Part shown: positions 3,241 to 31,127 of the stretch, in pieces | Layout of the letters: each line of letters starts with the position of its first letter | Position numbering within the stretch: the stretch's first letter is position 1 | NCBI GenBank assembly: GCA_016926985.1 | Contig: JAFGNO010000131.1 | Location: forward strand, 1-32,376 | DNA length: 32,376 nt | Source of the DNA: Anaerolineae bacterium | GTDB taxonomy: Bacteria > Chloroflexota > Anaerolineae > Aggregatilineales > UBA3940 | Direction of reading: 5' to 3' | The notes under the pieces: generated by a model | What the model was told of the DNA's origin: nothing | Databases searched by the model: none | What the model saw: the letters and a program-made list of their open reading frames with translations, nothing else | Translations under genes and position numbers: made by a program

Positions 3241-3252
3241 ATTCCACCTCCG

Positions 3253-4269: not shown

Positions 4270-4270
4270 T

Positions 4271-4954: not shown

Positions 4955-4957
4955 TGG

Positions 4958-5419
4958 TCACTCTCCAGTCGACGTCTCTGTCGTGTATAACGGGTCTTTT
5001 CGCAGTGGGTTTGGCCCCAGCTGCCGGATCTCTTCAGTTAACTTAGCAGCATATTCGGCAAACTGTCCTCCCATGGCAGATGACAAATTGAACATCTGGA
5101 CACGGCTCGCCTCCAGACCAATTTCCAACAGGAGATTCCTGACAAATTCAACCCGCCGCCTAGCGTTGATATTACCTAACAGGTAATGACAGTCGCCTTC
5201 CATTCAACCAGCGACCATAACGCCATCAGCGCCATCCTCAAGCGCCTTGAGAATATGCACCACATCCACTTTGCCTGTACATGGCAGCCCGATTATTCTA
5301 AGCGATTCAGGATAGTTCAAACGCAACGAACCAGCCAAGTCGGCTGCCGCGTAAGCACAATGATGGCAGCAAAATGCGACGATTGTTGGCTCAAAAGCAA
5401 ACTCATCATTTCCTGTCAT
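4958..5419 (-). CDS. mvhD: MvhD, [2Fe-2S] subunit, predicted selenoprotein with in-frame UGA at 5204..5206
   Basis: ORFs 5204..5419 and 4958..5203 are in the same frame, separated by one UGA; read through they give ...GADGVMVAG-U-MEGDCHYLLGN..., colinear with MvhD 10050..10568 (...GADGVYVVACPIGNCHHVRGN...). ATGA overlap with the upstream hdrA. Confidence 0.85.
5171..5187 (-). promoter_or_regulatory. candidate bacterial SECIS hairpin in mvhD
   Basis: Minus strand ATTACC-TGTTA-GGTAAT: perfect 6-bp stem, 5-nt loop with G at loop position 2; loop begins 22 nt after the UGA. Confidence 0.7.
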
Positions 5420-8400
5420 AATTTCTCCCGTTTGTCTGCCAGATCAGACTCGCAGAGCGCAATAAGGTCAAACCTATCCATAAACCGCCCTTTGCCAAAC
5501 AATGCATCAATCTTGGCAATGACCTGAACATCACTGTAGTGCCTCAACTGTATTGCCTGGGCAGGGCACTCACTGGCGCACGTCCCACAACCCTGGCAGA
5601 CAGCAGGTTCAATATACGCGGCCCCCATGATGTTGCCTGTTCCAACCAGAGAAGATTTCACCCGGGGGACACCAAACGGGCACACACGCACACAGGTCAA
5701 GCAACCAGTGCAGCGCGTTTCATCCACAACAGCAATGCTGCCACCCGCGGTCATTGTCTCATAGACAAGCACCTTGGCGGCCTGTGAAGCAGCGGCCTGG
5801 GCCTGAACGATGGTTTCATCGAGCAGTTTGGGATAGTGAGCCATCCCGGCCATAAACAAGCCATCGGTCGAAAAGTCAATCGGCCTGAGCTTGACATGCA
5901 CCTCAAGAAAGAACCCGTCATTGTCGAGATTGGCCTTAAATAAACGGGCTATCTCACGGGATTCTGGCCGGGGAACAACGGGCATACTGAGCACCAGCAG
6001 GTCTGGCTCCAGCCTGACTGTCTGACTGAAAGCCGAATCCCAGGCTGAAACAACCAGGCCGTCGTCGCTCTGCACGTCCGGGGGGTGGTCATCATCATAA
6101 CGAACAAAAACCACTCCCAGTTCACGGGCCTGCGTATACAGCCGCTCTTTGAATCCATAGGCGCGAATATCTTTGTAGATAATGACCACCCGGGCATCGG
6201 ACTTGCGCTGCTTGAGCGCAATGGCGTTCTTGAGCGCAACCGTGCAGCAGATACGGGAACAGTACTGTTCGGCGGGGCCAACACACTGGATCATCACAAC
6301 GGAATCAGGAAGCTCGCCGCCATGCAGGACAGCCTCAAACTGCTGCTGGGTCACGATCCGCGGGTTGGTCCCATACCCGTATTCCGGCCCGCGATATTCG
6401 ATGCCGCCAATCGCCAGTATGGTCGCACCATGCTCCAAGACGGTCCGCTCACCGGTGTTGGTCTCAATGGTGGTGGAGAAATTCCCTCGGAAACCACTGG
6501 CATCCACCACCTGGCTGTTGAGATGAACCGTTACGGCTGGATTCTCCTCCACCTGGTCAACAAGGTGCCGCAGAAATGCGGCGGGGTCCTGACCGTCGGG
6601 CAGGGTATAGGTGTATCGCAGGTTGCCCCCCAGCGCCTCTTCCTTTTCGATCAGATTGACCGGGAATCCCTGCTCGGCAAGGGACAGCGCGGCTGTCATC
6701 CCGGCCACCCCGCCACCGACAACAAGCGCACGCTGCTGGACAGGAACAGTGATCGGCGTCTGCGGGAGCAACTCGGCAGCGCGTCCAACCGCCATCCGGA
6801 CCAGGTCTTTTGACTTGGCGGTTGCTTTATCCCAGTTATGTGAGTGAACCCACGAACACTGGTTGCGGATATTGGCCATCTCAAACAGGTAGGGGTTCAA
6901 ACTGGCGGTGCGCAGGCAGTCGCGGAACAGGGGCTCATGCGTCAGGGGTGTGCAGCTTGCCACCACCACACGGTTAAGGCCACGTTCCCGGATTTCCTCA
7001 GCAATATGGGCGATGCTATCCTGCGAACAGGTATAGAGATTGGATTCCGCGTGTGCCACGCCCGGAAGCGTGGCGGCGTATTCAGCCACCTCAGGCACAT
7101 CCAGATACCCCCCGATATTGGAGCCGCAATGACAGACAAATACGCCAATTCGCAGTTCTTCGCCTGAGACGTCGCGCTCTTCTGGATACTCCGTTTGTTT
7201 GGTCAGGGTAAATCGCGAGTTGCTTAACAGCCCGGCAGCAGCACCTGCCGCCCCGCTGGCCTCAATAACCGATTCGGAAATATCTTTAGGCTCCCGGAAG
7301 GGGCCAACTGCGTATATCCCTTTTCGGCTGGTTTCCAGCGGATCAAACAGGGTGGTATGGCAGAACCCATATTCATCCAGCTCGATTCCAAGCCTGTGAC
7401 CCAGCGCTTTCACCGACTCGGAAATCTCCATACCGACGGAAAGCACTACCAGGTCAAACTGCTCATCATGGGGCGCGCCCTGATCATCGACATAGTGGAT
7501 CAGCAGGTTTCGTGTGTCAGGATCTTCATGAAGCTGGCTGATCCGGCAGCGCGTATACTGCACGCCATAGCGGTTCCGAGCGCGCTCAAAATATCCCCAG
7601 TATCCCTTGGAAAAAGCCCGCATATCCATCATGAATACGTGGATATCCAGGTCCGGCTCGTGCTCTTTGGTGATGATAGCTTCCTTTGTGGCGTACATGC
7701 AGCACACGGCAGAGCAGTAATCGTGGGACTGGTCGCGGGAGCCCACACACTGGAGAAAAGCAATCTTCTGCGGCTTCTGCCCATCAGATGGGCGCTGGAT
7801 ATGCCCCATTGTTGGACCTGAGGCAGACAGAATCCGCTCGTATTGCAAAGCGGTGATCACATTGGGATACCGGCCAAAGCCGTACTCTTCAGACAATTCG
7901 GCACGATACACCTGGTAACCAGGAGCCAGGATAACCGCCCCCACCTGGATCATTTCTTCGGTCGCCGCCATATCATGGTTAATAGCATCCCGCCCGCAGG
8001 CAAAGGTACAGCTCATGCACTCAGAACACACACCACAGGCCAGGCAACGAGCGGCTTCCGCCATGGCGGATTCGTCGTCATAGCCGCCTTCCACCTCGGC
8101 AAAATTGCCTATCCGCTTGCTTACCGGAAGCTCAGGCAGGGGAACCCGCCTCTGCGGTGTAATCTCACCCCGGGCAATACGCTCATCAATCTCCTGCTGG
8201 GTCAGTTTAACCACCGGCAGCTCCGGCTTGGGCGGCGGCTCCAGATGATCCCCCTGCAAATAGCGGATAATCGACCGTGCAGCAGTATGTCCACTGTCAA
8301 CAGCTTCAATGACAAAAGCCGTCCCCGATACGCTGTCGCCCGCTGCAAAAACACCCTCGCGTGTTGCTGCCAGCGTGTTGGGATTGACGGCTATGGTCCT

Positions 8401-9969
8401 TTTGCCAGTCAGCCCGACGCCGGCATCATCGGGGATGAAGGCAAGACCGGCCCGTTGCCCAACCGAAAAGATCACCGTGTCGCACTCAATCAGGTGGGCC
8501 GAGCCCGGAATTTTCTCAACGATCAGCCGACCCATCTCATCAAAGTGAAACGACTCAACCCGATCGCAGCAGACGCCGGACACATGCCCGGACGCATCAC
8601 CGACAATCTCTTCAAATGTACGTCCGGCGTGAATGACGACCCCTTCTTCCTCCGCCGCTAACACCTCCCAGTCATGCGCAGGCATTTCTTCGCGGCTCTC
8701 CAGGCAGGCCAGGTGAACCTCTCTGCCCAGCCGGATGGCAGAGCGCGCCACATCAATCGCCACGTTGCCTCCGCCCAGCACCAGCACGCGCCTGCCAAGC
8801 GGTGGGGCGTCGCCGCTGCCATTTTCATAGCGTCCCAGCCGCACATCACGCAGGAAATGGGTGTTGATCAGCACACCCTCGCGGTTGGCGCCGGGTATGG
8901 GTAGCCGGATGCCTTCATGAGCACCGACAGCAATCAAGACAGCATCAAATCCCTCATCGAACAGGTCGTCGAGGTTATTCACCTGCGCGTTGAGTTTCAA
9001 GGTTACGCCGAGATCAACAATATCCTGAATTTCACGCTCGATGATGTATGTGGGGAGCCGGTATTCCGGCACCCCCAGCCGCAGCATTCCCCCGGCAACC
9101 GGCATCGCCTCAAACACGGTGACCGGATACCCTTCCATTGCCAGGTCCTGGGCGGCGGTCAGTCCGCAGGGGCCCGCGCCGATGATCGCCACTTGTTTTT
9201 CATGGGCAACAGGGACAGGCTCTACAGGCTGCCGTTCTTCTGCGTAGACCTTATCGGTAACAAATCGCTTGAGAGCGCGAATATTCACCGGCTCATCCAC
9301 CAACCCACGGTTGCAGGCTGTTTCACAGCGATGGTTGCAAATACGCCCGCAGATACCGGGGAACGGGTTATCCATCTTGATGACGCGCATCGCGTCATGC
9401 CAGCGCCCTTCACGGATCAACGCAATATAGCCCTGGGCACGCTGTCCAGCTGGACAGGCATCACGGCATGGCGCTATGCCCCGTTTTTCAATGGCAAAGG
9501 CGTTGGGTACAGCCTGTGGATAGAGCTGGTAAACCGCTCGATGTTCGGACAGCCCCTCATTGAAATGATCGGTTATAATAACCGGGCAGACCTCAGCGCA
9601 GTCACCGCATCCAACACATTTTTCCACATCGATATAACGCGGCGCCTGGTGAATGCGAACCGCGAAATCGCCCGCCTCCCCGGAAATGTCCTGCACCTCA
9701 GCCTGGGTGATAATTTTAATATTGGGATGGTTGCCTGTTTCTACCAGCTTGGGAGATATGGTACACATCGCACAGTCATTGGTCGGGAACGTCTTGTCAA
9801 GCTGGGCCATTTTCCCGCCAATTGCCGGCTGCGCCTCGATCAGGTAGACCATAAAGCCCTGATCAGCCAGGTCCAGCGAAGCCTGCATGCCGGCAATGCC
9901 GCCACCGACAACCATGACTGCGCCGGTTGGTCTGAGCTCCTGCTGCCCGGTATTTTCGTTTCCCCTCAT
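5416..9969 (-). CDS. hdrA: giant HdrA-like protein: HdrA module with an NfnB/GltD-type NAD(P)H oxidoreductase insertion, then a second HdrA-like FAD module and C-terminal ferredoxin domain
   Basis: Three dinucleotide-binding motifs (VVGGGIAGMQA, IIGAGPCGLTA, VVGGGVAGMTA); GltD signature CRDACPAGQ...GICGRICNHRCETAC; HdrA motif TFPTNDCAMC; C-terminal CTGCLTCVRVCP and CQGCGTCASECP. The ORF is open to 10014 via TTG; ATG at 9969 has an SD-like AGGGGG. Confidence 0.9.
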   Translation of the reverse strand: MRGNENTGQQELRPTGAVMVVGGGIAGMQASLDLADQGFMVYLIEAQPAIGGKMAQLDKTFPTNDCAMCTISPKLVETGNHPNIKIITQAEVQDISGEAGDFAVRIHQAPRYIDVEKCVGCGDCAEVCPVIITDHFNEGLSEHRAVYQLYPQAVPNAFAIEKRGIAPCRDACPAGQRAQGYIALIREGRWHDAMRVIKMDNPFPGICGRICNHRCETACNRGLVDEPVNIRALKRFVTDKVYAEERQPVEPVPVAHEKQVAIIGAGPCGLTAAQDLAMEGYPVTVFEAMPVAGGMLRLGVPEYRLPTYIIEREIQDIVDLGVTLKLNAQVNNLDDLFDEGFDAVLIAVGAHEGIRLPIPGANREGVLINTHFLRDVRLGRYENGSGDAPPLGRRVLVLGGGNVAIDVARSAIRLGREVHLACLESREEMPAHDWEVLAAEEEGVVIHAGRTFEEIVGDASGHVSGVCCDRVESFHFDEMGRLIVEKIPGSAHLIECDTVIFSVGQRAGLAFIPDDAGVGLTGKRTIAVNPNTLAATREGVFAAGDSVSGTAFVIEAVDSGHTAARSIIRYLQGDHLEPPPKPELPVVKLTQQEIDERIARGEITPQRRVPLPELPVSKRIGNFAEVEGGYDDESAMAEAARCLACGVCSECMSCTFACGRDAINHDMAATEEMIQVGAVILAPGYQVYRAELSEEYGFGRYPNVITALQYERILSASGPTMGHIQRPSDGQKPQKIAFLQCVGSRDQSHDYCSAVCCMYATKEAIITKEHEPDLDIHVFMMDMRAFSKGYWGYFERARNRYGVQYTRCRISQLHEDPDTRNLLIHYVDDQGAPHDEQFDLVVLSVGMEISESVKALGHRLGIELDEYGFCHTTLFDPLETSRKGIYAVGPFREPKDISESVIEASGAAGAAAGLLSNSRFTLTKQTEYPEERDVSGEELRIGVFVCHCGSNIGGYLDVPEVAEYAATLPGVAHAESNLYTCSQDSIAHIAEEIRERGLNRVVVASCTPLTHEPLFRDCLRTASLNPYLFEMANIRNQCSWVHSHNWDKATAKSKDLVRMAVGRAAELLPQTPITVPVQQRALVVGGGVAGMTAALSLAEQGFPVNLIEKEEALGGNLRYTYTLPDGQDPAAFLRHLVDQVEENPAVTVHLNSQVVDASGFRGNFSTTIETNTGERTVLEHGATILAIGGIEYRGPEYGYGTNPRIVTQQQFEAVLHGGELPDSVVMIQCVGPAEQYCSRICCTVALKNAIALKQRKSDARVVIIYKDIRAYGFKERLYTQARELGVVFVRYDDDHPPDVQSDDGLVVSAWDSAFSQTVRLEPDLLVLSMPVVPRPESREIARLFKANLDNDGFFLEVHVKLRPIDFSTDGLFMAGMAHYPKLLDETIVQAQAAASQAAKVLVYETMTAGGSIAVVDETRCTGCLTCVRVCPFGVPRVKSSLVGTGNIMGAAYIEPAVCQGCGTCASECPAQAIQLRHYSDVQVIAKIDALFGKGRFMDRFDLIALCESDLADKREKL

Positions 9970-10049
9970 GAACCCCCTCACGGATGCTGCCCGATCAAAC
10001 AAAGCAGCGTTCAACCAATGCGTGCCCTCGAAAAGCTCCCTCCTGAGGC

Positions 10050-10568
10050 TTATTCTGTGGCATGCGGCCTGCGCCCACGCCAGCCAACCTCCTCATCCGG
10101 CCCCTCAATTCGCCCGGTATCTGGTACGCCAACATCTGATTTCTGGGGTTTGATGGGGTTAGGGCCAAGTTTTCGGATACGCTCAGTCATCTCATGTGCT
10201 GCCATCGCAAAGGAATGGCCCTGGCTGCCTGACATGAAGAACATCTCAAGCCTGTCACCCCCAATGCCAATCTCGTCAAGAATCGCCTTTGCGCGATTCA
10301 GGCGAGCCAGCCCCCGTTCATTTCCCCTGACATGATGGCAGTTGCCAATCGGGCAGGCAACAACGTAAACGCCGTCAGCGCCCTGTTCAAACGCTTCAAG
10401 CAAATAGCGGACATCCGTTTTACCGGTGCAGGGCATCCGGATGAATTTGATATTTGCGGGGTATTGAATCTGCTGGATTCCGGCTGTATCTGCAGCCATG
10501 TATCCACAATAAATACAGTAAAACGCGGTAATTTCTGGCTCGAAATTGCTGGATTGCTGGGAGTTCAT
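10050..10568 (-). CDS. mvhD: MvhD-like [2Fe-2S] protein, Cys version
   Basis: ITAFYCIYCGYMAADTAG, MPCTGKTDVRYLLEAFEQGADGV, CPIGNCHH, LGPNPIKP; paralog of the 4958..5419 product. Confidence 0.88.
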   Translation of the reverse strand: MNSQQSSNFEPEITAFYCIYCGYMAADTAGIQQIQYPANIKFIRMPCTGKTDVRYLLEAFEQGADGVYVVACPIGNCHHVRGNERGLARLNRAKAILDEIGIGGDRLEMFFMSGSQGHSFAMAAHEMTERIRKLGPNPIKPQKSDVGVPDTGRIEGPDEEVGWRGRRPHATE

Positions 10569-13500
10569 TTAGCCACCTCAGCGCTGATATGGGTCTGCCA
10601 GCTTCCTAACCCACCAATGGAATGAAGCATCATCTGTTCGTCAGTGTAATGCACCAACTGGATTGCATTGGCCGGACATTCGCCAGCGCAGGTCCCACAG
10701 CCCTGGCACTGCGCAGTGTCAATATACGCCGGGCTGCCCAATCCCCCCACCCCAGTCATGTCATCGCGTGGGACAATCTGCGGGATGGCAAACGGGCAGG
10801 TCCGGGTGCAGGTCAGACACCCGACACATTTCTCCGGATCCACAACCGCGACAATGCCTCCCAGATGCAGCGCCTGCTGGGACAGCAAAGGTAAAGCCCT
10901 TGCGGCAGCAGCCAGCGCATGACTGATGCTCTCCTCAATAAACTTTGGATAATGCGCCATACCAGCAAGGAATATACCCTCGCGCATGAAGTCCATGGGA
11001 CGCAGCTTCATCTGGGCTTCTGTGAAAAACCCCTCAGTAGACAGCGGAACCCTCAGTATCTCAGCCAACGCATTGGCCCCTTTGGCGGGCCCAATTGCCA
11101 TACTGATCGGGACCAGATCAGCAGGCAGGTCCAGCCAGCGTTTAATCGTCATATCATAGACGCGGACATGCAGACGGTTGCCATGCCTCACCAGCAAGGG
11201 CGGTTGGCTGTCCTCATAGCGAACAAACAACACACCTAGCTTCCGTGCAGCTTCGTAAAACTCCTCCCGGAACCCATAGGTTACGATATTTTTATAAACT
11301 ATTGTGAGTTGACAATCCGGGTTGAATAATTTGAGGCGAATGGCGTTTTTCATCGTATTGGTACAACAAACCCGCGAACAATATTCCGGGCTGCCGGGAG
11401 GACGAACACACTGTATCATGACAACTTCGCGCAAGGAAGCAATCTGGCCCGGTTCGTGGATAATCATCTCCTCAAGACGCTGCTGTGTGATCACTTCGGG
11501 ATAGACCTCAGCGTTGGTGAGCCACGGATGTTCCTGCGTTTCCCTGCCCCCTGTTGCCACAATCGTCACACCATGCTCGATCTCGGTGTTCGTAAATGAA
11601 CCATCCAGATGACGAGTGTGCAGAACCGCCTGGAAAAATCCCACATGGCCCCGGTGATCGATCACCTCAGTCCGGGTATGGGCCACGATCCGCTGGTGGG
11701 ATCGAACCCGGTTGACCAGGTCCCTCAGCAGACGCTGCGGCTGGTAGCCCTCTGCCACATAATACAGGTTCAAAAGGTTGCCGCCGAGCATATCCTCTCG
11801 CTCGACCAGGTGGACATCGCACCCACTGTCAGCAATGGCCAGCGCCGCCGACATCCCTGATACTCCCCCCCCAATAACCAGAGCCGTTGGGTGACAACTA
11901 TGCATATCTTTGTGAACCGGTTGCGCCAGCACAACACGTCCGGTAGCTGTACGCATGAGTTCAATTGCCTTCTGTGTCACTCTGCCCGGTTGCGCCCTAT
12001 GCACATTGGCACACTGCTCACGAATGTTAACCAGTTCGATAAGGTAGGGATTCAGCCCGACTTCCCGTATGGTGCGCTGGAATAATGGATCATGCGTCCG
12101 GTTGCTGCATGCTCCAATCACCACGCGGTTCAAGTTATACTCGTTGATTTTTTGTTTGATATGATCTGTCCCCGCCATAAAACAGGCATAGTCAATCACT
12201 TCTGATACGACTACATTCGGCCAGTGCGCAGCCTGCCTGAGCACCTCAGGGAGGTCGATTACCTCACTGATCACCTCACCGCATGAACAGGCAAAAATCC
12301 CCACTCTCGGAGACTGGGCGGTAATATCCCTCTCCGGTGGCAGCGTTTCATTGGCAAGGAAGGGCCATTCCCGTGTGAACTGGAAAGTGTTCAACCGGTC
12401 ATTGAGCAGCCGCATGACTTCTGCGGCTGCGCCGCTGGCATCGATGATCGTTTCAGAAATCTCCTTGGGAGAAGAAAAGGCGCCGCAGACAAAAACCCCT
12501 GGACGCGAGGTTTGCAAGGGCGTGAACTTATCTGTCTGGCAAAAGCCATACTCATTCAACTCGATATCCAGCATCTCAGCCAGTTCCCCGGCCGAGTCGG
12601 GTGGTTGAAGCCCGGTTGCCAGCACAACCATCTCATATCGTTCGTGAATTAGTTCACCCCGCTCATTGGCATACTGAAGAATCAAATCACCCGTAAGTGG
12701 ATCCTCCTGAACAGCCGATACCCTGCACCGGACATAGTTGATATGGTGGGTTTCTCGGGCCTGCTCAAAATACTTGCTGTATTCCTTGTTAAACGCGCGT
12801 TCATCCATAATGAAGACGGTACAGACAGCATCTTCACCCATCCGCTGTTTGGCCAGAATAGCCTCTTTGGTGGCGTACATACAGCAGATGGATGAACAGT
12901 ATTTATTTTCCCTGTCCCTGGAGCCAATACATTGCAGCCAGGCAATTGACCGGGGTTTCCGTTGGTCAGATAGACGACTTATCACGCCTTCGGTCGGGCC
13001 GGACCGGCTGGCAAGTCGCTCATAGGTCATGGCATGCAAGACATTTCGGAAACGTCCATAGCCCAGTTCATCCAGGCTGGAGGGGTCATAAGTCTGAAAG
13101 CCCAGCGCCAGGATAATGGCGCCCACATTGATGCCGATCAGTCTTGGTTGTTCGCTCAGGTTGATGGCCCCTGTCGGGCAGATTTCCTGACATTTGCCAC
13201 AGTCGTCACAATAATCACCTTTATCAATCGCATACGAATCCGGTGCAGCTCGCCCGGCTAATTTGAAGGCTGCCTTTCGTGTCGCCAGGTTATCCTGGTA
13301 GGAATCGGGGAGTTCAACCGGGCAGACACGAGCACAGTCTCCACAGTTGGTGCATAACTCAGGGTCGACATAGCGAGGATTCTGGCGCACTGAAACGCTG
13401 AAGTCCCCTGCCTGTCCTTCCACACCAACTATCCGTGAGTTGGTCAATATCTCGATATTGGGATGTCGGTTGTGATCGATATATGCCGGAGACAAAGAGG

Positions 13501-13738
13501 GGCGGGTGCATCCAAACCCATGATCTGCAGTTCCACGACAAAGCACACAGTCATGCTGGGGAAACATATATCCCAGTTGAGCCACCCGCCCACCCAGACA
13601 GGGCGTTTGTTCAACAAGATATACCTGCAATCCGGCATCGGCCAGGTCAAGAGCGGCTCGCATACCGCCGATGCCACCACCGACAACAAGTGCTGCTGCT
13701 GGCTGCCCTTTTGCAGTGCGGGAGCGAAGTGGTTCCAT
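10565..13738 (-). CDS. HdrA-like protein with two FAD modules and ferredoxin domains
   Basis: VVGGGIGGMRAALDLADAG, VIGGGVSGMSAALAIADSG, several CxxCxxCxxxCP motifs. ATG at 13738 with upstream GAGGA chosen over TTG at 13771. Confidence 0.88.
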   Translation of the reverse strand: MEPLRSRTAKGQPAAALVVGGGIGGMRAALDLADAGLQVYLVEQTPCLGGRVAQLGYMFPQHDCVLCRGTADHGFGCTRPSLSPAYIDHNRHPNIEILTNSRIVGVEGQAGDFSVSVRQNPRYVDPELCTNCGDCARVCPVELPDSYQDNLATRKAAFKLAGRAAPDSYAIDKGDYCDDCGKCQEICPTGAINLSEQPRLIGINVGAIILALGFQTYDPSSLDELGYGRFRNVLHAMTYERLASRSGPTEGVISRLSDQRKPRSIAWLQCIGSRDRENKYCSSICCMYATKEAILAKQRMGEDAVCTVFIMDERAFNKEYSKYFEQARETHHINYVRCRVSAVQEDPLTGDLILQYANERGELIHERYEMVVLATGLQPPDSAGELAEMLDIELNEYGFCQTDKFTPLQTSRPGVFVCGAFSSPKEISETIIDASGAAAEVMRLLNDRLNTFQFTREWPFLANETLPPERDITAQSPRVGIFACSCGEVISEVIDLPEVLRQAAHWPNVVVSEVIDYACFMAGTDHIKQKINEYNLNRVVIGACSNRTHDPLFQRTIREVGLNPYLIELVNIREQCANVHRAQPGRVTQKAIELMRTATGRVVLAQPVHKDMHSCHPTALVIGGGVSGMSAALAIADSGCDVHLVEREDMLGGNLLNLYYVAEGYQPQRLLRDLVNRVRSHQRIVAHTRTEVIDHRGHVGFFQAVLHTRHLDGSFTNTEIEHGVTIVATGGRETQEHPWLTNAEVYPEVITQQRLEEMIIHEPGQIASLREVVMIQCVRPPGSPEYCSRVCCTNTMKNAIRLKLFNPDCQLTIVYKNIVTYGFREEFYEAARKLGVLFVRYEDSQPPLLVRHGNRLHVRVYDMTIKRWLDLPADLVPISMAIGPAKGANALAEILRVPLSTEGFFTEAQMKLRPMDFMREGIFLAGMAHYPKFIEESISHALAAAARALPLLSQQALHLGGIVAVVDPEKCVGCLTCTRTCPFAIPQIVPRDDMTGVGGLGSPAYIDTAQCQGCGTCAGECPANAIQLVHYTDEQMMLHSIGGLGSWQTHISAEVAK

Positions 13739-13907
13739 AGAGCATTCCTCGACGTTGAAAACCACGTACAACTAACGGAAATACACCATTAACAAATGGA
13801 CGTGTGAATAGGACTATGAAGTCTGAGTGGTAGGCGGGAGAAGGTGAACGTGGAGTAGTTAGCGTGATTGTGTGTGAGAGTTCTGTTTTATGCAGCTATT
13901 TAAATGC

Positions 13908-14115: not shown

Positions 14116-15357
14116 TTAGTGCTCCGCTGGTACACTGTCAGCCGCAGGATAGATAGGCAGATAGCGCACTCCCAGTGTCAGGCCCAGCAACGCATAAGCA
14201 ATGATTCCCAGAAACGCGCCAATTTCAATCAGCGTAGGCGTATAGGACAATCGGGGGAAAAGAAAGGCCGTTCCAGGAGACCAATCGAGCGGCACAACCA
14301 GGCCGGAGATAGTTGTATTCCAGCGGAGCATAACAACGCCAACAATGGTCAAGGCAGCGGCCAGCATAAGCATCCAATCATTCTCACGCAGACGTCGCCA
14401 CATATAAATGATAGCAGGCAGAATTCCCCCGATCAGAACCTCAACCCACCAGAAAGTCGCCCCATAGGGAGATGTCTGGTATAGAAGCTCCAGGCCCGCC
14501 TCGGTAGCAGGAAGACTGCTGTAGTAGTTAGTGGCTGCCCAGTTCCACACCTTTAAATAGAGATAAAAGAGCAAGGCTGCGCCAGCAATCAGCGCCAGAT
14601 CGCGTAAAACGCCCGGCTTAACCACATATTTTCCCCGCAAGAGGCTGACAACCAGGGTAACCAGCAAGGTCGCCGACAGGCCGCCAGCCACAGCCGACAG
14701 GATAAATTGGACCGGCAGCGAGGGGTTATACCAGAGCGGTCGGGCAGCAATAATACCATACGTTGCACCAAGAGAAGATTGGTGCAGGAGTGATAGGACA
14801 AGACCAATCAGCGCAAATATCGGCGTGAAGCGATGAAGCTGGTGGGCCGCTTTCGGTGCAGCCGCCCAGCGCGCCTTGACAACGTCGCTCTCCAAAACAA
14901 CAACCGCGATCTCAAGCGCCAGCACTGTGAAGTAAAACACCACGCACATCGTGATTTCCCACAACACCGAGTGGACATTCCAGTAAACCAGTGGATGCCA
15001 GAACCGATCCGGGCGGCCAATGTCCAGGGCAAGGGCCAGCATCGCAGAGGAGTATCCCAGAAACCCACCAAGCACAGCGATCCGGGCAACCCCCTCAAAC
15101 CGCTTGATGTTCAGCAGGTAAACAACCGCCGATAGAACAAACGCGCCTGCTCCCAGACTGATTGCTGAGAGGTCCAGGGCAATCCACAATCCCCACGGTA
15201 TCTGGTGTGACAGCCCGGTAACACCCAACCCTTTAGCAAATACCACCACTCCACACACAACGCCAATCACCAGCAGAATCCCCAGGAGGCCAATCCAAAT
15301 TTTCAGGCCCAGAGGCATGTCAAGCCATGGTAGCTTTTTCATAACGGCGCCTGTCAT
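14116..15357 (-). CDS. NrfD/PsrC-like polytopic membrane subunit
   Basis: 413 aa, many TM helices, follows a periplasmic FeS subunit gene with ATGA overlap; NrfD-like organisation. Confidence 0.85.
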   Translation of the reverse strand: MTGAVMKKLPWLDMPLGLKIWIGLLGILLVIGVVCGVVVFAKGLGVTGLSHQIPWGLWIALDLSAISLGAGAFVLSAVVYLLNIKRFEGVARIAVLGGFLGYSSAMLALALDIGRPDRFWHPLVYWNVHSVLWEITMCVVFYFTVLALEIAVVVLESDVVKARWAAAPKAAHQLHRFTPIFALIGLVLSLLHQSSLGATYGIIAARPLWYNPSLPVQFILSAVAGGLSATLLVTLVVSLLRGKYVVKPGVLRDLALIAGAALLFYLYLKVWNWAATNYYSSLPATEAGLELLYQTSPYGATFWWVEVLIGGILPAIIYMWRRLRENDWMLMLAAALTIVGVVMLRWNTTISGLVVPLDWSPGTAFLFPRLSYTPTLIEIGAFLGIIAYALLGLTLGVRYLPIYPAADSVPAEH

Positions 15358-16145
15358 GAGATCACCATCCCTTCAGCCGGGATATAGTAGACGTTAGGCT
15401 CCGTGCCCAGGTCTTCTTTCAGCTTAAAAGTAGGCGTACTGGCAATGAGTTTCGCCACTTCTGATTCCGGGTCATTCAGATCGCCAAACAGCCGGGCCTG
15501 AACCGGGCAGATATTGACACAGGCAGGTGTTGCAGAACGATCAACACCGGGCATCAATCCCTGTTCCAACCCGCGATCGATCCGGTGCACACAGAAAGTA
15601 CACTTTTCAACCACCCCACGCGGGCGGCGCTCGATTTCAGCAACGCCATATTCTGGCTGATAGGGATTTACATCGCTCCGGGGGGAGTAGTTGAAACGCC
15701 GCGCATCATAAGGGCAGGCCACCATGCAATACCGGCAGCCAATACAGCGGTCATAATCCATCACCACCACGCCATCCCCTCGCTGATAGGTGGCATGCAC
15801 CGGGCATACGTCAGCGCATGGCGGGTCCTGGCAGTGCAGGCAGGGACGAGTCATGTGGAAAATCTGACCCGTGACCGTCCGGTCCGGCGTGTAGACATTC
15901 CACAGCATATCTTCAGCAGTATCGTTTACTGCCCGGCATGCATAAACACAATACTGGCATCCAATACACTTACTCAGGTCGATCACCATCACCCAGCGGT
16001 GATTTCCTTCTGCCGTTTCTTCAGCATTGACCCGGTGAGCAATCCCCGGTGAGGCCAGCGCCGCGGCAACTGCTGTGGAGAAACCAGCAATGCCAAGCGC
16101 TTCCAGGAACTTCCGCCTGCTAACAGGCTTTACGTTTTCTGTCAT
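15354..16145 (-). CDS. Tat-exported 4Fe-4S ferredoxin-type subunit (NrfC/TtrB/PsrB-like)
   Basis: SRRKFLEALGIAGFSTAVAAALASPG twin-Arg signal; CIGCQYCVYAC, CLHCQDPPCADVCP, CIGCRYCMVACPYDAR, CTFC...CVNICP. Start set at MTENVKP. Confidence 0.88.
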   Translation of the reverse strand: MTENVKPVSRRKFLEALGIAGFSTAVAAALASPGIAHRVNAEETAEGNHRWVMVIDLSKCIGCQYCVYACRAVNDTAEDMLWNVYTPDRTVTGQIFHMTRPCLHCQDPPCADVCPVHATYQRGDGVVVMDYDRCIGCRYCMVACPYDARRFNYSPRSDVNPYQPEYGVAEIERRPRGVVEKCTFCVHRIDRGLEQGLMPGVDRSATPACVNICPVQARLFGDLNDPESEVAKLIASTPTFKLKEDLGTEPNVYYIPAEGMVIS

Positions 16146-16146
16146 G

Positions 16147-18573
16147 CTACTCTGTCTCCTCATCGACCCGTTCATCGTCCCACTTACCAAACCTGGCAGT
16201 AATGAAGGAGCGATTCCGGCAAATGAAGACCCCTATTCCGCCAACAACCAGACCAATCGCCGCGCCTTTTATAATATTCAGAATAGTTCTGTTGCGGTCT
16301 TCATGCATAAGGGTCTCGACCTCTGCCTGAAGCTCACTGATCAGAAGCTCTTCTTCTGTTCCCAGCAGAATAGACTCTTCGGTATCCGTTCGGGAGAATC
16401 CATCATCCACATTGCTGGGAACCAGTTCAATATCCTGATGGCAATCCAGGCAACTGGTCACATTGACCCGGAAGTCGTGTCCGGTGGGTTTCTGCCCATC
16501 CGGGCGCTGTGTATAAGAGTCGGGATTCACATAGCCATGGCAGTCGCGGCAGACCAGGCCCGCCTCCACATGCGACTGGTGAGCAAAATCATCAAGCTGG
16601 TGGCTGTGGCAATTCAGGCACTGCGTGACCTGGTCTTCGAAGCGCAGGCCATTTGTATGGGCATAGTGGCAGCTTGTACAGGTCATACCTGCAACCTCAT
16701 GCAAACTGGCGCGGAACTCGGCTTCTGACACTGTGTGACAGTCTGCACAGGCGGTGATCGCATCATTCAGTCCGGCAGCCACAGCAGGATGGCCCTCAGG
16801 GACCTGTCCATGGCAGGCTTCACAGGCAACGCCTTCGGCATGGTAGCTTTCCAGCGCAGGGCTGTAACCAGTGGTATGGCAGTCCAGACAGTCAGGATCG
16901 TAATTGCGCTCTCCCCAGGATTCCTGGAACCCATTATTAGAATAGGCATGGGCATGAGGCGTTTCGACCCAGTCGTTGACTATAGCACTGTGGCACTCAA
17001 CACAGGTAGATGGAATCTGATCAATTGGATTGGAGGGCGCAGCAGATGGAGGCTCACCGGTCGGTTCTTCAGTCAGTTCTGGCTCCGGCTCCGCTGGAAC
17101 AGGCGGGAAGGTCGACAATACCTGGACCTCTTCAGAAGAGTAGCCAAGCGCGATAAAATCGAGCCGCCCGTTCTCAGTGTGGCAATCCATGCAGCCAAGG
17201 GCTTCCTCGGCAGGGGCCACCTGGTGGGTAATCGGCCAGTACATAACGCTTTCGATCTGCTCATACGAACCGCTGTATTCGACATCGCGCTGGGCCAGCC
17301 CTTCCTGCAAAGCCAGGTCCATATCCCATACTTTCCAGAAAGCTGTTGTATCATCCGCGTTGTAGGGAAACAGGTGAGGGATGCCAATGACGTTGTTCAC
17401 CGGGTCGTAGGGTTGGATACCGGTGAACACCTTGAAGGGCCATATCTTGCCATCTTCCCGGCTCCCAAGAATGGCATTTACTGTGAAATTGGTATCAGGG
17501 TCAACGCCCTCCTCAAACAGCGCATAGTCATATACGCCATTTGACCAGAAATACTCGGGCTGCACATCCATTTCCCAGGTGAATGACCCCTTGCGCGAGT
17601 CATAAACATGGACCTCAAAACCGTTGACCTCCTCGCTGACAATCCAGGGATATCCCCCTTCAGGATTGGGCTGTCCTGCTTGTGACCAGTCCCAGGTCAT
17701 CATTGACGGCGCACCGCGAGCAAACTCCGGAATATGGCAGGTCTGGCAGGCGATAAACCCTGCATGGGTATTCAAAGCAGCAACATCTGCATGTGGCTCT
17801 GCTGTGTGGCAGTTCTCACAGGTAGCCCCTTCGCCCGTATAAGCATCTGCCACATAGCGCCCACCGGAGATATTGTGGTTTTCGGTGATGTGGCAATCGG
17901 TGCAGGAGAAATCAAGTCCATCGGAACTCATGTGAACATCTTCCTCCCAGGCAGGATCAAGCAGAGACGTGTCCAGGTCGCCGTGTTTCACACCATCTCC
18001 CCCGCCGCCTGTGAAGTGACAGGAACCACAGGTCTGGCGGCTGGTTGCCCCGACATTTTGCGCCACATAAGCCAGGTCTACCGGCGGCCATTCCACGCCG
18101 CTCAGGATTATTGGCTCTCCCAGCACCGGGTTACCGGCTGCTGTGGGGAACTTGGCATAAGTGCCAGTTGTATCATGGCAGACCAGGCAGTCTATCAACT
18201 CCGGGTTCTCGAAATCGAACGTGTCATCACGCCAGCCATAGCCAATATGGCAGCTCGTGCAACGCGGTTCATTTGAGTCTATTGCAATGCAGTAGTTGTT
18301 GATGACATACCGTTTACCCACGGTCTCGCCAATCACCTCATTCTCATATTCCCAGGTCCAGTGGACAGTGCTCATAATATCGCTGGCGACATTGGCATGG
18401 CAGGTCAGACAGGCCGCAGTCACCTCAGGGCCAGATTCAAATGGCCCTTCTAACAACGTAAAAGTTGAGTGATCCATCCCCTGCTGGGCAACAGCCTCAT
18501 CTTGCGTAAGCAAAATCAGGCCCAGCGCAGCGCTCAGTGAAATCACTATTGCGACAACATGCGTACGTTTCAT
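16147..18573 (-). CDS. multiheme c-type cytochrome (16 CXXCH): octaheme tetrathionate-reductase-like N-half fused to a second 8-CXXCH half with C-terminal TM anchor
   Basis: Signal peptide, 16 counted CXXCH motifs, OTR-like GYGWRDDTFDF...CLVCHDTTGTYAKFP, Pro/Glu-rich linker, C-terminal AAIGLVVGGIGVFICRNR. Confidence 0.88.
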   Translation of the reverse strand: MKRTHVVAIVISLSAALGLILLTQDEAVAQQGMDHSTFTLLEGPFESGPEVTAACLTCHANVASDIMSTVHWTWEYENEVIGETVGKRYVINNYCIAIDSNEPRCTSCHIGYGWRDDTFDFENPELIDCLVCHDTTGTYAKFPTAAGNPVLGEPIILSGVEWPPVDLAYVAQNVGATSRQTCGSCHFTGGGGDGVKHGDLDTSLLDPAWEEDVHMSSDGLDFSCTDCHITENHNISGGRYVADAYTGEGATCENCHTAEPHADVAALNTHAGFIACQTCHIPEFARGAPSMMTWDWSQAGQPNPEGGYPWIVSEEVNGFEVHVYDSRKGSFTWEMDVQPEYFWSNGVYDYALFEEGVDPDTNFTVNAILGSREDGKIWPFKVFTGIQPYDPVNNVIGIPHLFPYNADDTTAFWKVWDMDLALQEGLAQRDVEYSGSYEQIESVMYWPITHQVAPAEEALGCMDCHTENGRLDFIALGYSSEEVQVLSTFPPVPAEPEPELTEEPTGEPPSAAPSNPIDQIPSTCVECHSAIVNDWVETPHAHAYSNNGFQESWGERNYDPDCLDCHTTGYSPALESYHAEGVACEACHGQVPEGHPAVAAGLNDAITACADCHTVSEAEFRASLHEVAGMTCTSCHYAHTNGLRFEDQVTQCLNCHSHQLDDFAHQSHVEAGLVCRDCHGYVNPDSYTQRPDGQKPTGHDFRVNVTSCLDCHQDIELVPSNVDDGFSRTDTEESILLGTEEELLISELQAEVETLMHEDRNRTILNIIKGAAIGLVVGGIGVFICRNRSFITARFGKWDDERVDEETE

Positions 18574-26615: not shown

Positions 26616-27512
26616 TTACGAACCTGTTCGGCGGCGGGTTCGCCGTTCCCGGCGGCGGCCATCGTGTTCTTCGCCGCTGCGGTTTGCAGCCAGCCAACTG
26701 GCACAGTTCTCGTCACGCCCCATCATCACATCTGCTGCAAGGATGGTCATTCTGATATCCTCTTCAAGCGGGTTGGCAATCGCGCAGGGCATCCCTAATG
26801 CAATTGCCATCGCCAGAAAGGTGGCGTTCAGCCGGATGCGCCCGGGCAGGCCAAATGACACATTGCTGGCCCCGCAAACAGTGTTCACGCCCAGTTCATC
26901 CCGGCAGCGACCGACCAGTTTAAAAACCGCTCTACCGGCCATAGGGACGGCACCAACAGGCATAACGAGCGGATCGACCAGCACATTTTCGCGGGAAATA
27001 CCGTGATCTTCAGCCCGTCGCACGATTTTCCTGGCGATCTCAAACCGCATATCAGGGTCCTCTGAAATGCCGGTTTCGTCGTTGCAGATTGCGATGACAG
27101 CAGCGCCGTATTTTTTTATCAGCGGCAAAACTGCCTCCAGCCGTTCTTCTTCCCCCGTAACCGAGTTGACAAGCGCTTTCCCTTCATAGGCCTCCAGACC
27201 AGACTGCAAAGCAGCGATGATTGAGGAGTCGATTGAAAGTGGGACATCAGTCACCGCCTGCACCCGCCTGACAGCTTCAGCAAGAATGGCAGGCTCATCG
27301 GCAAGAGGAATGCCTGCGTTGACATCCAGCATCTGCGCCCCGGCGCTGACCTGAGCTGCCGCATCCGACTCCACCCGGCTGTAGTCTCCCGCCGCCATCT
27401 CAGCGGCCAGCATCTTCCGCCCGGTTGGGTTAATCCGTTCCCCAATGATGACAAAAGGATGGTCTGGGCCAATCACAACAATTTTAGTCTTCGAGCTCAA
27501 AGTTGTCTTCAT
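26616..27512 (-). CDS. pterin-binding methyltransferase (methyl-THF:corrinoid methyltransferase-like, AcsE/MetH pterin domain family)
   Basis: FVIIGERINPTGRK, GAQMLDVNAG, PLSIDSS, ICNDETGI, DPLVMPVG, CGASNVSFGLPGR. Confidence 0.88.
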   Translation of the reverse strand: MKTTLSSKTKIVVIGPDHPFVIIGERINPTGRKMLAAEMAAGDYSRVESDAAAQVSAGAQMLDVNAGIPLADEPAILAEAVRRVQAVTDVPLSIDSSIIAALQSGLEAYEGKALVNSVTGEEERLEAVLPLIKKYGAAVIAICNDETGISEDPDMRFEIARKIVRRAEDHGISRENVLVDPLVMPVGAVPMAGRAVFKLVGRCRDELGVNTVCGASNVSFGLPGRIRLNATFLAMAIALGMPCAIANPLEEDIRMTILAADVMMGRDENCASWLAANRSGEEHDGRRRERRTRRRTGS

Positions 27513-27515
27513 AAC

Positions 27516-28124
27516 CTAGTCTCCAATGCGGCTCTTATCGCTGCATTTCATCAAATTGACAAGTCGCGTCTCTAGTGTGCCGTATCCGGTATCCCACACC
27601 TCAAAATCAAGCTCCAACTGCGCTGCCGCCCTGGATGCTTTTGCCAACAGGCTGGGATCATCAGTCTGCTTCAGGTAAACGACCCGTCTGTAATTTGCAA
27701 AGTAAGTATCCCTGAGCTCCGGGGCCCGGTCCAATCCGAGTCCTTCAATAACAAGGTGATCGAATGAGCGAACCAGGAAGTCTGTGAGAAAAAACGTGCC
27801 CGGCTCATCGACCATGGCCGCCTCAAACGCGTCTTTGCCAAGATACTGCTCATAACAGTGCGGGCCGCTGATCCGCTCAACAGACAGGGAATCCAACATA
27901 TCATCCAGGGCGCCGGCTGTACCGCAGTCGCCATAAATAACAATCGTATGCTCATACCGATCGGCGGTATCCACAATACGCTTCCTGACAGCCTCCGGTA
28001 TGCGGGAGGGATCGTTATGCAAAAGCGCGGGGACTGCCAGCACTTCTGCATCCCAGCCATATCGATTCCGTATGGCGATCACCTCGCGGGCAAGTGCCCC
28101 ACAGGTAAGCAGCAGAACTGTCAC
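27516..28124 (-). CDS. DUF1638-like protein
   Basis: CGALAREV..., LHNDPSRIPEAV, IVIYGDCGTAGALDDML; located in a methyltransferase cluster as is usual for this family. Confidence 0.72.
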   Translation of the reverse strand: MTVLLLTCGALAREVIAIRNRYGWDAEVLAVPALLHNDPSRIPEAVRKRIVDTADRYEHTIVIYGDCGTAGALDDMLDSLSVERISGPHCYEQYLGKDAFEAAMVDEPGTFFLTDFLVRSFDHLVIEGLGLDRAPELRDTYFANYRRVVYLKQTDDPSLLAKASRAAAQLELDFEVWDTGYGTLETRLVNLMKCSDKSRIGD

Positions 28125-28136
28125 CGAACTGGCATC

Positions 28137-29024
28137 CTATTTAAGCGCCTCTGCAATAGCGCGGATATGATCAGGGGTGCTCCCGCAGCAAGCGCCAATG
28201 ATGGTTGCACCCAGGTTCCGCACCCGCACCGCATAGCGCCCCATATCTGAGGGGGCTGCATCATACACTGGCACGCCAGCTTCCAGGTGGGGCACACCTG
28301 CATTTGCCTTGGCGATCAGGACAGCGTTCTTGCCAAGTGCATGCATTTTGCTGACCACAGTCTCAATTTCCTCAATACCGTTCCCGCAGTTGCCACCCAG
28401 CGCCACGACATCGAACCCTATGAGGACTTCAAAGGCTCTCTCAGGTGTCACCCCAAACATTGTCCGCCCATTTGTATCAAAGGTCATGGTTGTGACCAGG
28501 GGCAGTTGGGGTGCTGCACGCCGGGCGCCCTCTACCGCAGCACGCACCTCCTCAAGATCGGACATCGTCTCAATCCAAAGGATATCAACGCCGCCTTCTG
28601 CCAGTGCGCCCGCCTGCTCCGCAAATGCAGAGACCGCATCGTCAAACTCCATGTCTCCATATGGCTTCAAAAGACTGCCGGTTGGGCCCATATCCCCCGC
28701 CACAATCACCGGTTGAGGAGCCTCATCAGCTTCGGTCCTGGCCAGGCTGGCCGCCGCCTGATTAAACTCAATGGCTCTATCAGACAACTTGTGCAGCTTG
28801 AGACGATATCTGTTACATCCAAACGTGTTGGTCAGGATAATCTGTGCGCCGGCTTCAATATAAGCCCGGTGAACATTGCGTATCCTGTCTGGATGCTCAA
28901 CATTCCACAATTCCGGCGAGTCTCCCTGAGTCAGGCCCAGCTCAAACAGGATGGTGCCCATCGCGCCATCGGCAATCACCGGTTTGCCGGAAGATATAAG
29001 GTCCTGGAATGTGGTTTTCATCAA
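28137..29024 (-). CDS. homocysteine S-methyltransferase family protein
   Basis: DGAMGTILFELGL, TNTFGCNRYRL, AGDMGPTG, ALGGNCGNG, IIGACCGSTPDHI (Zn-ligating Cys). Confidence 0.9.
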   Translation of the reverse strand: MMKTTFQDLISSGKPVIADGAMGTILFELGLTQGDSPELWNVEHPDRIRNVHRAYIEAGAQIILTNTFGCNRYRLKLHKLSDRAIEFNQAAASLARTEADEAPQPVIVAGDMGPTGSLLKPYGDMEFDDAVSAFAEQAGALAEGGVDILWIETMSDLEEVRAAVEGARRAAPQLPLVTTMTFDTNGRTMFGVTPERAFEVLIGFDVVALGGNCGNGIEEIETVVSKMHALGKNAVLIAKANAGVPHLEAGVPVYDAAPSDMGRYAVRVRNLGATIIGACCGSTPDHIRAIAEALK

Positions 29025-29081
29025 TTACCTTTCATAAGCAATCAGCGTTTGCAATGAATGGGAGGATTTTACCATACTCCC

Positions 29082-31127
29082 CTACCCTGTTCTACGCGAC
29101 CGCGATGATCTGTCTTTTCGCCTGTCACCAGGACTATTTCGAGGCGGCAGAATCCCCGCAAGATGAGGAAATTTGTCTTCAGCATGTGGCAGGGCCATGG
29201 CAGCAACAAAGAATTCCTGGAAATGTGGAGCAATGGCGGTCTCAACATATTCAACACTGCGAGCTGCCTCCTGCGCTTCCTTCCGGCTCTCAGCGTTGAG
29301 AAGCGCGATCCGCGCCCCATCCCCGGCAGAATTGCCAACTGCTGTTACGTTTATGAGATCGCAATCTGGTATCAGCCCAATGACCATGGCATAGGTTGGA
29401 TCAATATAACTGCCAAAAGCGCCCGCCAGTTTGATCCGGTCGACCCTGTCTGTCCCAAACCTTTCCATAAGCAGCCGAATCCCTGCATAGAGCGCACCTT
29501 TTGCAAGCTGTATCTGACGTATATCATTTTGAGTAACGACGATATCATGACCGGTGGATGTTTGCTCGCTGTCAGCAATCACTACCTCATAGGTGCGACC
29601 ATTCGGCTGCAGCCTGACCGCAGGGTGCAGACTTTCAGCATCCTTTACAAATCGACCGCTACGATCAATTAGCCTATGAATGAATAACTCCCCCACCACT
29701 TCGATAATGCCCGATCCACAAATCCCGGTTGGCTTGAGCGACTGGTCCGCATCGATCTCGCCGCTCCAGCGCTGATCTCCCACGACCTTATAGTGCATCT
29801 GGCCTTGACCAGTATCGATCCGAAACCGCTCAATTGCCCCCGGTGTGGCTCGCTGACCGTGGGTAATCTGCGCGCCTTCAAAGGCCGGCCCTGTCGGGCT
29901 TGAGGCTGACAGCATCCGCGTGCGGTTCCCAAGCAGAATCTCAGCATTTGTGCCGATATCTACAACAAGTGTGATCTGGTCATCAAGCTGGGGCTGTTCA
30001 GCCAGAAGTACTGCTGCATTATCTGCTCCAACATGCCCAGCAATGCATGGCAAAATGTGCGCATACGCGCCTTTGCTGACAGAGGTCAAACCCAGATCAC
30101 GGGCTTTGATATCAACCGGATCGCTGACTGCCAGCGCAAATGGCGCCCCACCCAATTCAACGGGGTCAATACCCAGCAAGATATGATGCATGACGGTGTT
30201 ACCAACCAGCACAACATCGACAATATCATCCTGATGTAAATCGACACTTGCTGCGGCTTCAACCGCCAGGTCGTTTACTGCCTTCAACACAGCCCGGTGC
30301 ATCCGGGCAAGTCCCTCTGGCTCAGTGATACCATACGACACGCGGCTCATCAGGTCCTCACCATATCGGACCTGCGGGTTCATCATTGACCGGGTAGCCA
30401 GTACCTGGCCTGTCAGCAGATCAACCAGATGCCCGGCAAGAGTTGTCGATCCAACGTCAACGGCAAACCCGGCCATCCTTTCAACATACCCCGGCTCAAT
30501 ACGGATTACCTCAGCATTGTTCCAGAGCGTCAGGGTTATTGCCCAATTGCCCTGGCGCAAAGCCGATTGGAGTCGTGGAAACAATACCGGATCGAGTTGA
30601 ATATCGCTGGCATGCCATTGATTGGAAACGGCGCGTTGCACTCGCTCCCAATCAGCAGTGCCTTCTAAAATCGCCGGTTCAACGGTGATATACATAAGCC
30701 TGACAGCGGGATTGACCGCTATTTGCAGGTCGCTGGCCTCTTTGCGAATAACCTGCTTGCGTGCGAGGCTGCTTTCCGGCACAAAAATAAGCGCGTCACC
30801 CTTGAGCCTGGCAGAACATGATAGGCGATATTTGCTGAGGTCAAGCCCGTGTTCTTCTGCATAGGCTTGTTCCTCCGCTTCTGGTGGGGTGAGGTGCGAG
30901 TTTTTTGACTCGATACCGTGCTTTTGAAAAATACCAGTCTCGTGAGCGATCAGACACTTTCCGCAGGTCTGCCGCCCACCACAGATTGACTCGATGCCCA
31001 CTCCAAGCTGCCGGGCGGCATCAAGCACAGTCTGTCCACATTCAACCTTACCCTGCCTTCCTGAAGGCATAAGGATCAGCCTACACAGGATAGTGCTATC
31101 TTGATGGCTCATCTTCCTCGCTCGCAT
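29082..31127 (-). CDS. RACo-like corrinoid-protein reductive activator (2Fe-2S ferredoxin plus ASKHA/DUF4445 domain)
   Basis: N-terminal CGGRQTCGKCLI ferredoxin motif; AVDVGSTTLAGHLVDL, VDIGTNAEILLG, GPAFEGAQITHGQRA, GICGSGIIE. Alternative start at 31112. Confidence 0.9.
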   Translation of the reverse strand: MRARKMSHQDSTILCRLILMPSGRQGKVECGQTVLDAARQLGVGIESICGGRQTCGKCLIAHETGIFQKHGIESKNSHLTPPEAEEQAYAEEHGLDLSKYRLSCSARLKGDALIFVPESSLARKQVIRKEASDLQIAVNPAVRLMYITVEPAILEGTADWERVQRAVSNQWHASDIQLDPVLFPRLQSALRQGNWAITLTLWNNAEVIRIEPGYVERMAGFAVDVGSTTLAGHLVDLLTGQVLATRSMMNPQVRYGEDLMSRVSYGITEPEGLARMHRAVLKAVNDLAVEAAASVDLHQDDIVDVVLVGNTVMHHILLGIDPVELGGAPFALAVSDPVDIKARDLGLTSVSKGAYAHILPCIAGHVGADNAAVLLAEQPQLDDQITLVVDIGTNAEILLGNRTRMLSASSPTGPAFEGAQITHGQRATPGAIERFRIDTGQGQMHYKVVGDQRWSGEIDADQSLKPTGICGSGIIEVVGELFIHRLIDRSGRFVKDAESLHPAVRLQPNGRTYEVVIADSEQTSTGHDIVVTQNDIRQIQLAKGALYAGIRLLMERFGTDRVDRIKLAGAFGSYIDPTYAMVIGLIPDCDLINVTAVGNSAGDGARIALLNAESRKEAQEAARSVEYVETAIAPHFQEFFVAAMALPHAEDKFPHLAGILPPRNSPGDRRKDRSSRSRRTG

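Follow-up and report, generated by a model that had tools for sequence, protein, structure and literature searches.

The octaheme tetrathionate reductase (OTR) of S. oneidensis has a solved structure and is able to reduce nitrite, hydroxylamine and tetrathionate in vitro, while its physiological role has been called "cryptic" (PMC11024163, PMC4484225). The catalytic heme 2 of the enzyme is ligated by a conserved lysine (PMC11024163), and an interaction with the tetraheme cytochrome STC has been described (PMC4484225). A 2026 review includes the corresponding protein family TIGR04315 among the selenoprotein families annotated in GenBank, where the motif is not given (PMC13188914). Quinol is oxidised by NrfABCD and MccACD, the quinone-linked complexes with a multiheme catalytic unit which come closest in architecture (PMC8076601), and QrcABCD works electrogenically when it reduces quinone (PMC6303296). 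For thiosulfate reductase an electron transfer driven by the proton motive force has been discussed (PMC4807273). Here a locus is described in which an OTR-family domain is fused to a second octaheme domain and encoded together with an FeS and an NrfD-type subunit. It lies in the window, by which we mean the whole stretch of 32,376 nucleotides that was analysed, from a 2.28-Mb MAG which is 80% complete and consists of 249 contigs.

The sixteen-heme protein

A single open reading frame with an ATG start (positions 16147–18573, minus strand) encodes a protein of 808 amino acids with exactly sixteen CXXCH motifs, eight in the N-terminal half (residues 55, 105, 129, 182, 224, 252, 276, and 461) and eight in the C-terminal half (residues 524, 562, 584, 609, 632, 652, 675, and 708). 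Shuffling the protein 2000 times yielded a mean of 0.075 and a maximum of 2 such motifs. Between the halves is a Pro/Glu-rich linker (residues ~488–519, positions 17017–17112, minus strand). Hydropathy peaks are found at residues 3–25, a signal or anchor, and at about residues 763–786, a C-terminal transmembrane helix. The signal peptide (about 18490–18573, minus strand) lies within the OTR part, and the transmembrane helix (16216–16287, minus strand) forms the end of a long helix which spans residues ~728–795 in the AF2 model. The two halves were modelled separately because a joint MAFFT alignment had placed the rows of stand-alone relatives of the C-terminal half onto the OTR half.

The N-terminal half (residues 1–484, positions 17122–18573, minus strand) matches TIGR04315 over the full length of the model (564 bits with a cut-off of 375, residues 34–478 on model positions 2–440) and the S. 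oneidensis OTR structure 1sp3 with E=1e-125, all eight CXXCH motifs being in register in the alignment. The AF2 model built from 38 sequences (pLDDT 72, pTM 0.68) folds like 1sp3, which was the sole significant PDB match in Foldseek (E=3e-37, TM 0.55–0.60). Asn92, Cys95, Asp128, Lys141, Lys196, and His197 are invariant in all 38 aligned OTRs. Lys141 in the stretch CHDTTGTYAK (codon at 18151–18153, minus strand) corresponds to chain position 110 of 1sp3 and is the candidate ligand of heme 2. Cys95, a non-heme cysteine encoded by TGC (18289–18291, minus strand), corresponds by alignment to chain position 64 of 1sp3 and presumably lines the active site, as we take the equivalent cysteine to do in the OTR structure. 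Models for NrfA and HAO gave no match in the 808-amino-acid protein.

The C-terminal half contains an octaheme domain, termed C8 in the following (residues ~520–756, positions 16306–17016, minus strand), which is delimited by its homology to stand-alone octaheme proteins. In relatives C8 is a separate protein of 300–390, typically about 340, amino acids with a long helix plus a transmembrane anchor, in which all eight CXXCH motifs and seven further histidines are invariant among 25 sequences. Its weak profile matches are to proteins of the wire type, i.e. DmsE/MtrA, GSU2203, and NrfB, with 42–64 bits for the DmsE/MtrA decaheme family TIGR03508, below the cut-off of 192. Pfam Cytochrome_C554 also matches within the half (61 bits over 20.8), and no NCBIfam equivalog model was found for this stretch. 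The AF2 model of C8 (pLDDT 69, pTM 0.46) had MtrA (6r2q_A) as best PDB match, with a Foldseek E value of 0.066 which is not significant. A role of the C-terminal half as a second catalytic octaheme was rejected in view of its purely wire-type affinities. An HmcA-type identity of the sixteen-heme protein was also rejected, the model NF045713 giving no match at E<=0.001.

An earlier note made from the sequence alone had described two sets of eight CXXCH motifs around a Pro/Glu-rich linker and a C-terminal transmembrane anchor, both of which were borne out by the counts and the hydropathy profile. Its suggestion that the N-terminal half is OTR-like now has the backing of a profile model, a solved structure, a fold search and the active-site residues, and the C-terminal half, which it held to be of a different type, indeed belongs to a separate, wire-like octaheme family.

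The FeS and NrfD-type subunits

The gene of the FeS subunit (15354–16145, minus strand) starts one base past the stop of the sixteen-heme reading frame and overlaps by four bases with the gene of the NrfD-type subunit (14116–15357, minus strand), all three thus being closely packed in one operon. The FeS subunit is NrfC/QrcC/DsrO-like and carries a Tat-type SRRKF signal. It reaches the cut-off of the DsrO model (223.7 bits, cut-off 200) and scores 171.4 of the required 400 bits for QrcC, 163 bits for TtrB, and 142.8 bits for NrfC, where the cut-off of 377.6 is not reached. The quinone-reactive membrane subunit matches Pfam NrfD with 115 bits and is nearest to QrcD (269.7 of 570 bits), followed by HmcC (178.8 bits), with far lower scores for the NrfD equivalog model (37.3 of 347.6) and for DsrP (52 of 350).

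When the residue numbers published for QrcD (PMC6303296, PMC8076601) were mapped, not by sequence alignment but by a fixed shift of −8 and, further along, −7, the quinone-site residues D70, D120, S138, E142, and S202 corresponded to D62, D112, S130, E134, and S195, and all five are invariant in 21 homologs. Seven of the nine residues of the QrcD proton path are kept (D62, Y80, Y102, Y142, E149, E156, and H192, the counterparts of D70, Y88, Y110, Y150, E157, E164, and H199), N100 is replaced by Arg92, and E413 has no counterpart. Since the quinone-site residues are conserved, quinone is very likely a reactant of the subunit. On oxidation of quinol at this site the protons would probably be set free on the cytoplasmic side, and the reaction may thus be coupled to the proton motive force.

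Separated by a gap of 344 bases, a cluster (1816–13771, minus strand) follows downstream with two HdrA-like proteins (1068 and 1532 amino acids), two MvhD proteins, MetV/MTHFR, and a CCG-domain protein, possibly a flavin-bifurcating methylene-THF reductase complex. It was left out of the system described here because of this gap and because none of the modules examined in relatives has such a cluster. In its second MvhD/FlpD gene (4958–5422, minus strand) the reading frame contains a TGA, within VMVAG-U-MEGDCHY, at a position that encodes cysteine in the other copy (10050–10568). The genome has selB as well as selA, the latter in two pieces on different contigs, and this protein is therefore probably a selenoprotein. 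A further cluster (26616–31127, minus strand) comprises genes for a pterin-binding methyltransferase, DUF1638, a homocysteine S-methyltransferase-like protein, and RACo and represents a corrinoid demethylation cluster.

Fused and separate genes in related genomes

A second complete OTR–C8 fusion was found neither in the 154 genomes of the order, where the window itself gave the only end-to-end match to the full-length query, nor in samples of the class, the family and the phylum, and no protein of the same sixteen-heme architecture with a known substrate was encountered in this set. A scan of named genomes yielded stand-alone OTRs in proteobacteria only, which is a weak negative because few exact patterns were used.

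In relatives the halves are separate proteins. C8 occurs as a stand-alone gene directly upstream of FeS and NrfD genes of the same type in 20 loci, with identities to the window proteins of about 58–77% for FeS and 51–72% for NrfD. It is found without FeS–NrfD in four loci (L071, L104, L110, L115), and contig ends cut some C8 loci, including L107 and L108. Downstream of stand-alone OTR genes there is often a gene for a cytochrome b that resembles PhsC (85–129 bits, PhsC cut-off 204). One genome of the same family, G288, has both parts as separate units, an OTR with its own transmembrane anchor (L015, 61% identity) and a C8–FeS–NrfD module (L061), while the window genome contains no second OTR and no second C8–FeS–NrfD module. 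C8 and NrfD of the window group with those of G506, G288, and G512 from its own family (SH-aLRT 99), hence this module is native to the genome. In the OTR tree the window falls into a clade of cytochrome-b-linked and fused OTRs in which its nearest relative is not resolved. Other couplings comprise adjoining OTR, FeS and NrfD genes of the HybA/HmcB type (L125 in G133), an OTR fused to a DmsE-like heme tail and cut by a contig end (L120 in G214), and a divergent OTR with an MtrA/DmsE-like heme tail near C8–FeS–NrfD (L151 in G321). From these couplings, and from the other multiheme fusions described below, it follows that quinol module and catalytic multiheme protein are exchangeable, and that the window holds one such pairing made covalent.

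As the halves are separate proteins in relatives and C8 stands beside the same FeS and NrfD genes, the 808-amino-acid protein can be read as a Rosetta-stone fusion which predicts an electron path from quinol via NrfD and FeS to the octaheme wire and OTR. This logic, together with the quinone-site residues, supports the quinone-linked periplasmic conduit or reductase postulated in the earlier note. That an enzyme of known structure but cryptic physiology is fused to the wire belonging to a quinol module is direct evidence, at the level of the gene, of a path by which it receives electrons.

Other large multiheme proteins were seen in the same survey. A 1469-amino-acid chain with 22 hemes (L146 in G174, 2742–7151, minus strand) consists of two OTR domains, a transmembrane segment and an NrfH-like heme domain. 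In proteins with 17 hemes a different nine-heme N-terminal part is fused to C8 (L077, L116, L117, L118, L119), and these genes are followed by FeS and, except at the contig end of L077, by NrfD.

Sulfur, selenium and the substrate

The operon contains no gene of substrate metabolism, and no nitrogen-oxide genes are present in the window. One stand-alone OTR (L078) adjoins sulfur-transporter and rhodanese genes, and one C8–FeS–NrfD module (L111) adjoins an exported protein with four rhodanese domains. Two OTRs from one genus carry an in-frame TGA exactly at the codon of the invariant cysteine (NNF-U-IS): L126 (G199:C235, between 2352 and 2777) and L127 (G160:C603, between 5798 and 6406). About 16 bases past the TGA there is a stem GCAACGA-GGC-UCGUUGC, whose folding energy is not beyond that of shuffled sequences. 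Both genomes have selB over the cut-off, and selA is complete in G160 and a contig-end fragment in G199. We regard the two proteins as candidate selenocysteine OTRs. Selenocysteine in this family is already on record, and new is its position at the invariant cysteine. The rhodanese and sulfur-transport neighbours of the stand-alone halves and the TGA at the invariant cysteine favour a sulfur (or selenium) substrate. In the OTR of G288 (L015, G288:C257) a TGA replaces the first cysteine of the heme-2 CXXCH motif. It was not accepted as selenocysteine because this genome has neither a selA match nor selB over the cut-off, and is probably a nonsense change or a sequence error.

The C8–FeS–NrfD module also adjoins an 11-heme cytochrome with an in-frame TGA in the motif GPG-U-GGSV[AP]P. 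It stands beside C8, mostly as C8–FeS–NrfD, in L062, L063, L065, L073, L076, L102, L104, L105, L107, L108, L109, L112, L113, L114, and L115. The TGA is kept in 37 of 38 long matches within the order, a SECIS-like hairpin downstream of it had a z value of −4.8 in one of the four folded sequences, selA/selB are next door in several genomes, and no NCBIfam model matches the protein over its cut-off. It is possibly a new selenoprotein family. It occurs in 28 of the 33 genomes of the order with C8 as compared to 12 of the 121 others, with a Fisher value of 2e-16 which overstates the association because the genomes are related. It is absent from the window genome as far as this is assembled. Like the rhodanese neighbours, its association with C8 speaks for sulfur (or selenium) chemistry.

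Proposed function and alternative explanations

We consider it rather likely that the three genes encode a multiheme reductase complex of the NrfABCD/MccACD kind which is anchored in the membrane, lies on the P side, draws on quinol and reduces a small sulfur compound. Menaquinol would be oxidised at NrfD. Its electrons would move via the FeS subunit to the C-terminal C8 wire, cross the linker and arrive at the OTR domain in the N-terminal half, where a small molecule would be reduced at the Lys-ligated heme 2 adjoining the invariant cysteine. A nitrogen oxide is the less likely acceptor, and polythionate, thiosulfate or polysulfide may take this role. A possible coupling to the proton motive force and the PhsC likeness of the partner of stand-alone OTRs hint at an acceptor of low potential. 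Order and direction of the electron flow are what we infer from gene order and homology.

The direction could be reversed, as QrcD-like residues are typical of a branch mostly reducing quinone (PMC6303296). The OTR domain would then oxidise a reduced compound or take electrons from a periplasmic donor, and C8–FeS–NrfD would reduce menaquinone electrogenically in a Qrc/Hmc/Nhc-like manner. In line with this, QrcD and next HmcC are the best matches of the NrfD-type subunit, and seven of nine proton-path residues are kept at a fixed offset. However, OTR is known solely as a reductase (PMC11024163, PMC4484225), NrfABCD and MccACD work in the quinol-oxidising direction, and the window holds no QrcB-like or c3 donor gene, which together make the reversal unlikely in our view. 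A similarly low probability is assigned to a quinol-dependent reduction of nitrite or hydroxylamine, in ammonification or detoxification, by the same complex in the same direction. NrfABCD is indeed the closest architectural analogue, but the invariant cysteine, with a TGA in two genomes, suggests thiol or selenol chemistry, the stand-alone halves have sulfur genes as neighbours, and nitrogen-oxide genes are absent from the window.

Less probable still is a non-catalytic conduit, with all sixteen hemes arranged as one long wire that would lead electrons from the membrane to acceptors outside, e.g. Fe(III), and with an OTR domain that would itself have turned into a wire. OTR relatives such as MmcA do act as conduits (PMC11024163) and C8 has its weak MtrA/DmsE affinity, but MmcA lacks heme 2, and the full retention of heme 2, Lys141, Cys95, and the surrounding residues points to retained catalysis. 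As the window contains no porin or outer cytochrome, metal reduction was not favoured. Finally, the complete fusion is known from a single, incomplete and fragmented MAG, and it has to be considered that the assembly may have misjoined genes for OTR and C8. This is very improbable, as the junction lies within an uninterrupted frame, GC (0.54/0.54) and GC3 (0.60/0.55) show no break between its two sides, the genome contains neither OTR nor C8 a second time, and OTRs with DmsE-like heme tails occur in G214 and G321, too.

Going beyond the proposed quinol-linked reduction of a sulfur compound in the window, one may speculate, with considerable doubt, that OTRs in general are thiol- or selenol-dependent S–S (or S–Se) reductases which have Cys or Sec at the invariant active-site position and work on interchangeable quinol modules, i.e. 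a PhsC-type cytochrome b, a HybB/Hmc-type NrfD, or a QrcD-type NrfD with an octaheme wire, the window encoding a covalent reverse-loop reductase. With both the PhsC-type and the QrcD-type module the protons of quinol would end up in the cytoplasm, so that the proton motive force could drive electrons onto an acceptor of low potential, for instance thiosulfate. With separate genes, other modules, and Cys versus Sec, the relatives provide a comparison set for the role of the active site.

Comparison with known systems

The N-terminal half resembles S. oneidensis OTR (SO4144, PDB 1sp3) over its whole length, including eight hemes in register, the heme-2 lysine, and the cysteine at position 64. 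The S. oneidensis protein, however, is a single eight-heme periplasmic protein, whereas the OTR of the window is membrane-anchored and continues into a wire domain. With the NrfABCD system of the E. coli type the locus shares a multiheme catalytic unit, a multiheme wire, FeS and NrfD, a P-side location and the link to quinol. It differs in that the catalytic unit is OTR instead of NrfA, the scores for the NrfC and NrfD models are far below cut-off, and the wire has eight hemes, is membrane-anchored, and is fused to the catalytic unit. In MccACD sulfite reductase an octaheme catalytic cytochrome is likewise fed by FeS and NrfD-type subunits (PMC8076601), although MccA is another type of octaheme protein and carries no octaheme wire within its own chain.

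QrcABCD provides the nearest NrfD and, by score, a near-nearest FeS subunit, with the quinone site and most of the proton path kept, but QrcB and a match to QrcA are missing from the window, the cut-offs are not reached, and the partner is OTR. As compared to DsrMKJOP, the FeS subunit reaches the cut-off for DsrO, the NrfD-type subunit does not reach that for DsrP, and DsrM, DsrK, and DsrJ are absent from the operon. The gene set of a sixteen-heme cytochrome, FeS and NrfD is also that of Hmc (HmcA, HmcB, HmcC), yet the sixteen-heme protein of the window is unrelated to HmcA and is composed of eight plus eight hemes from two other families.
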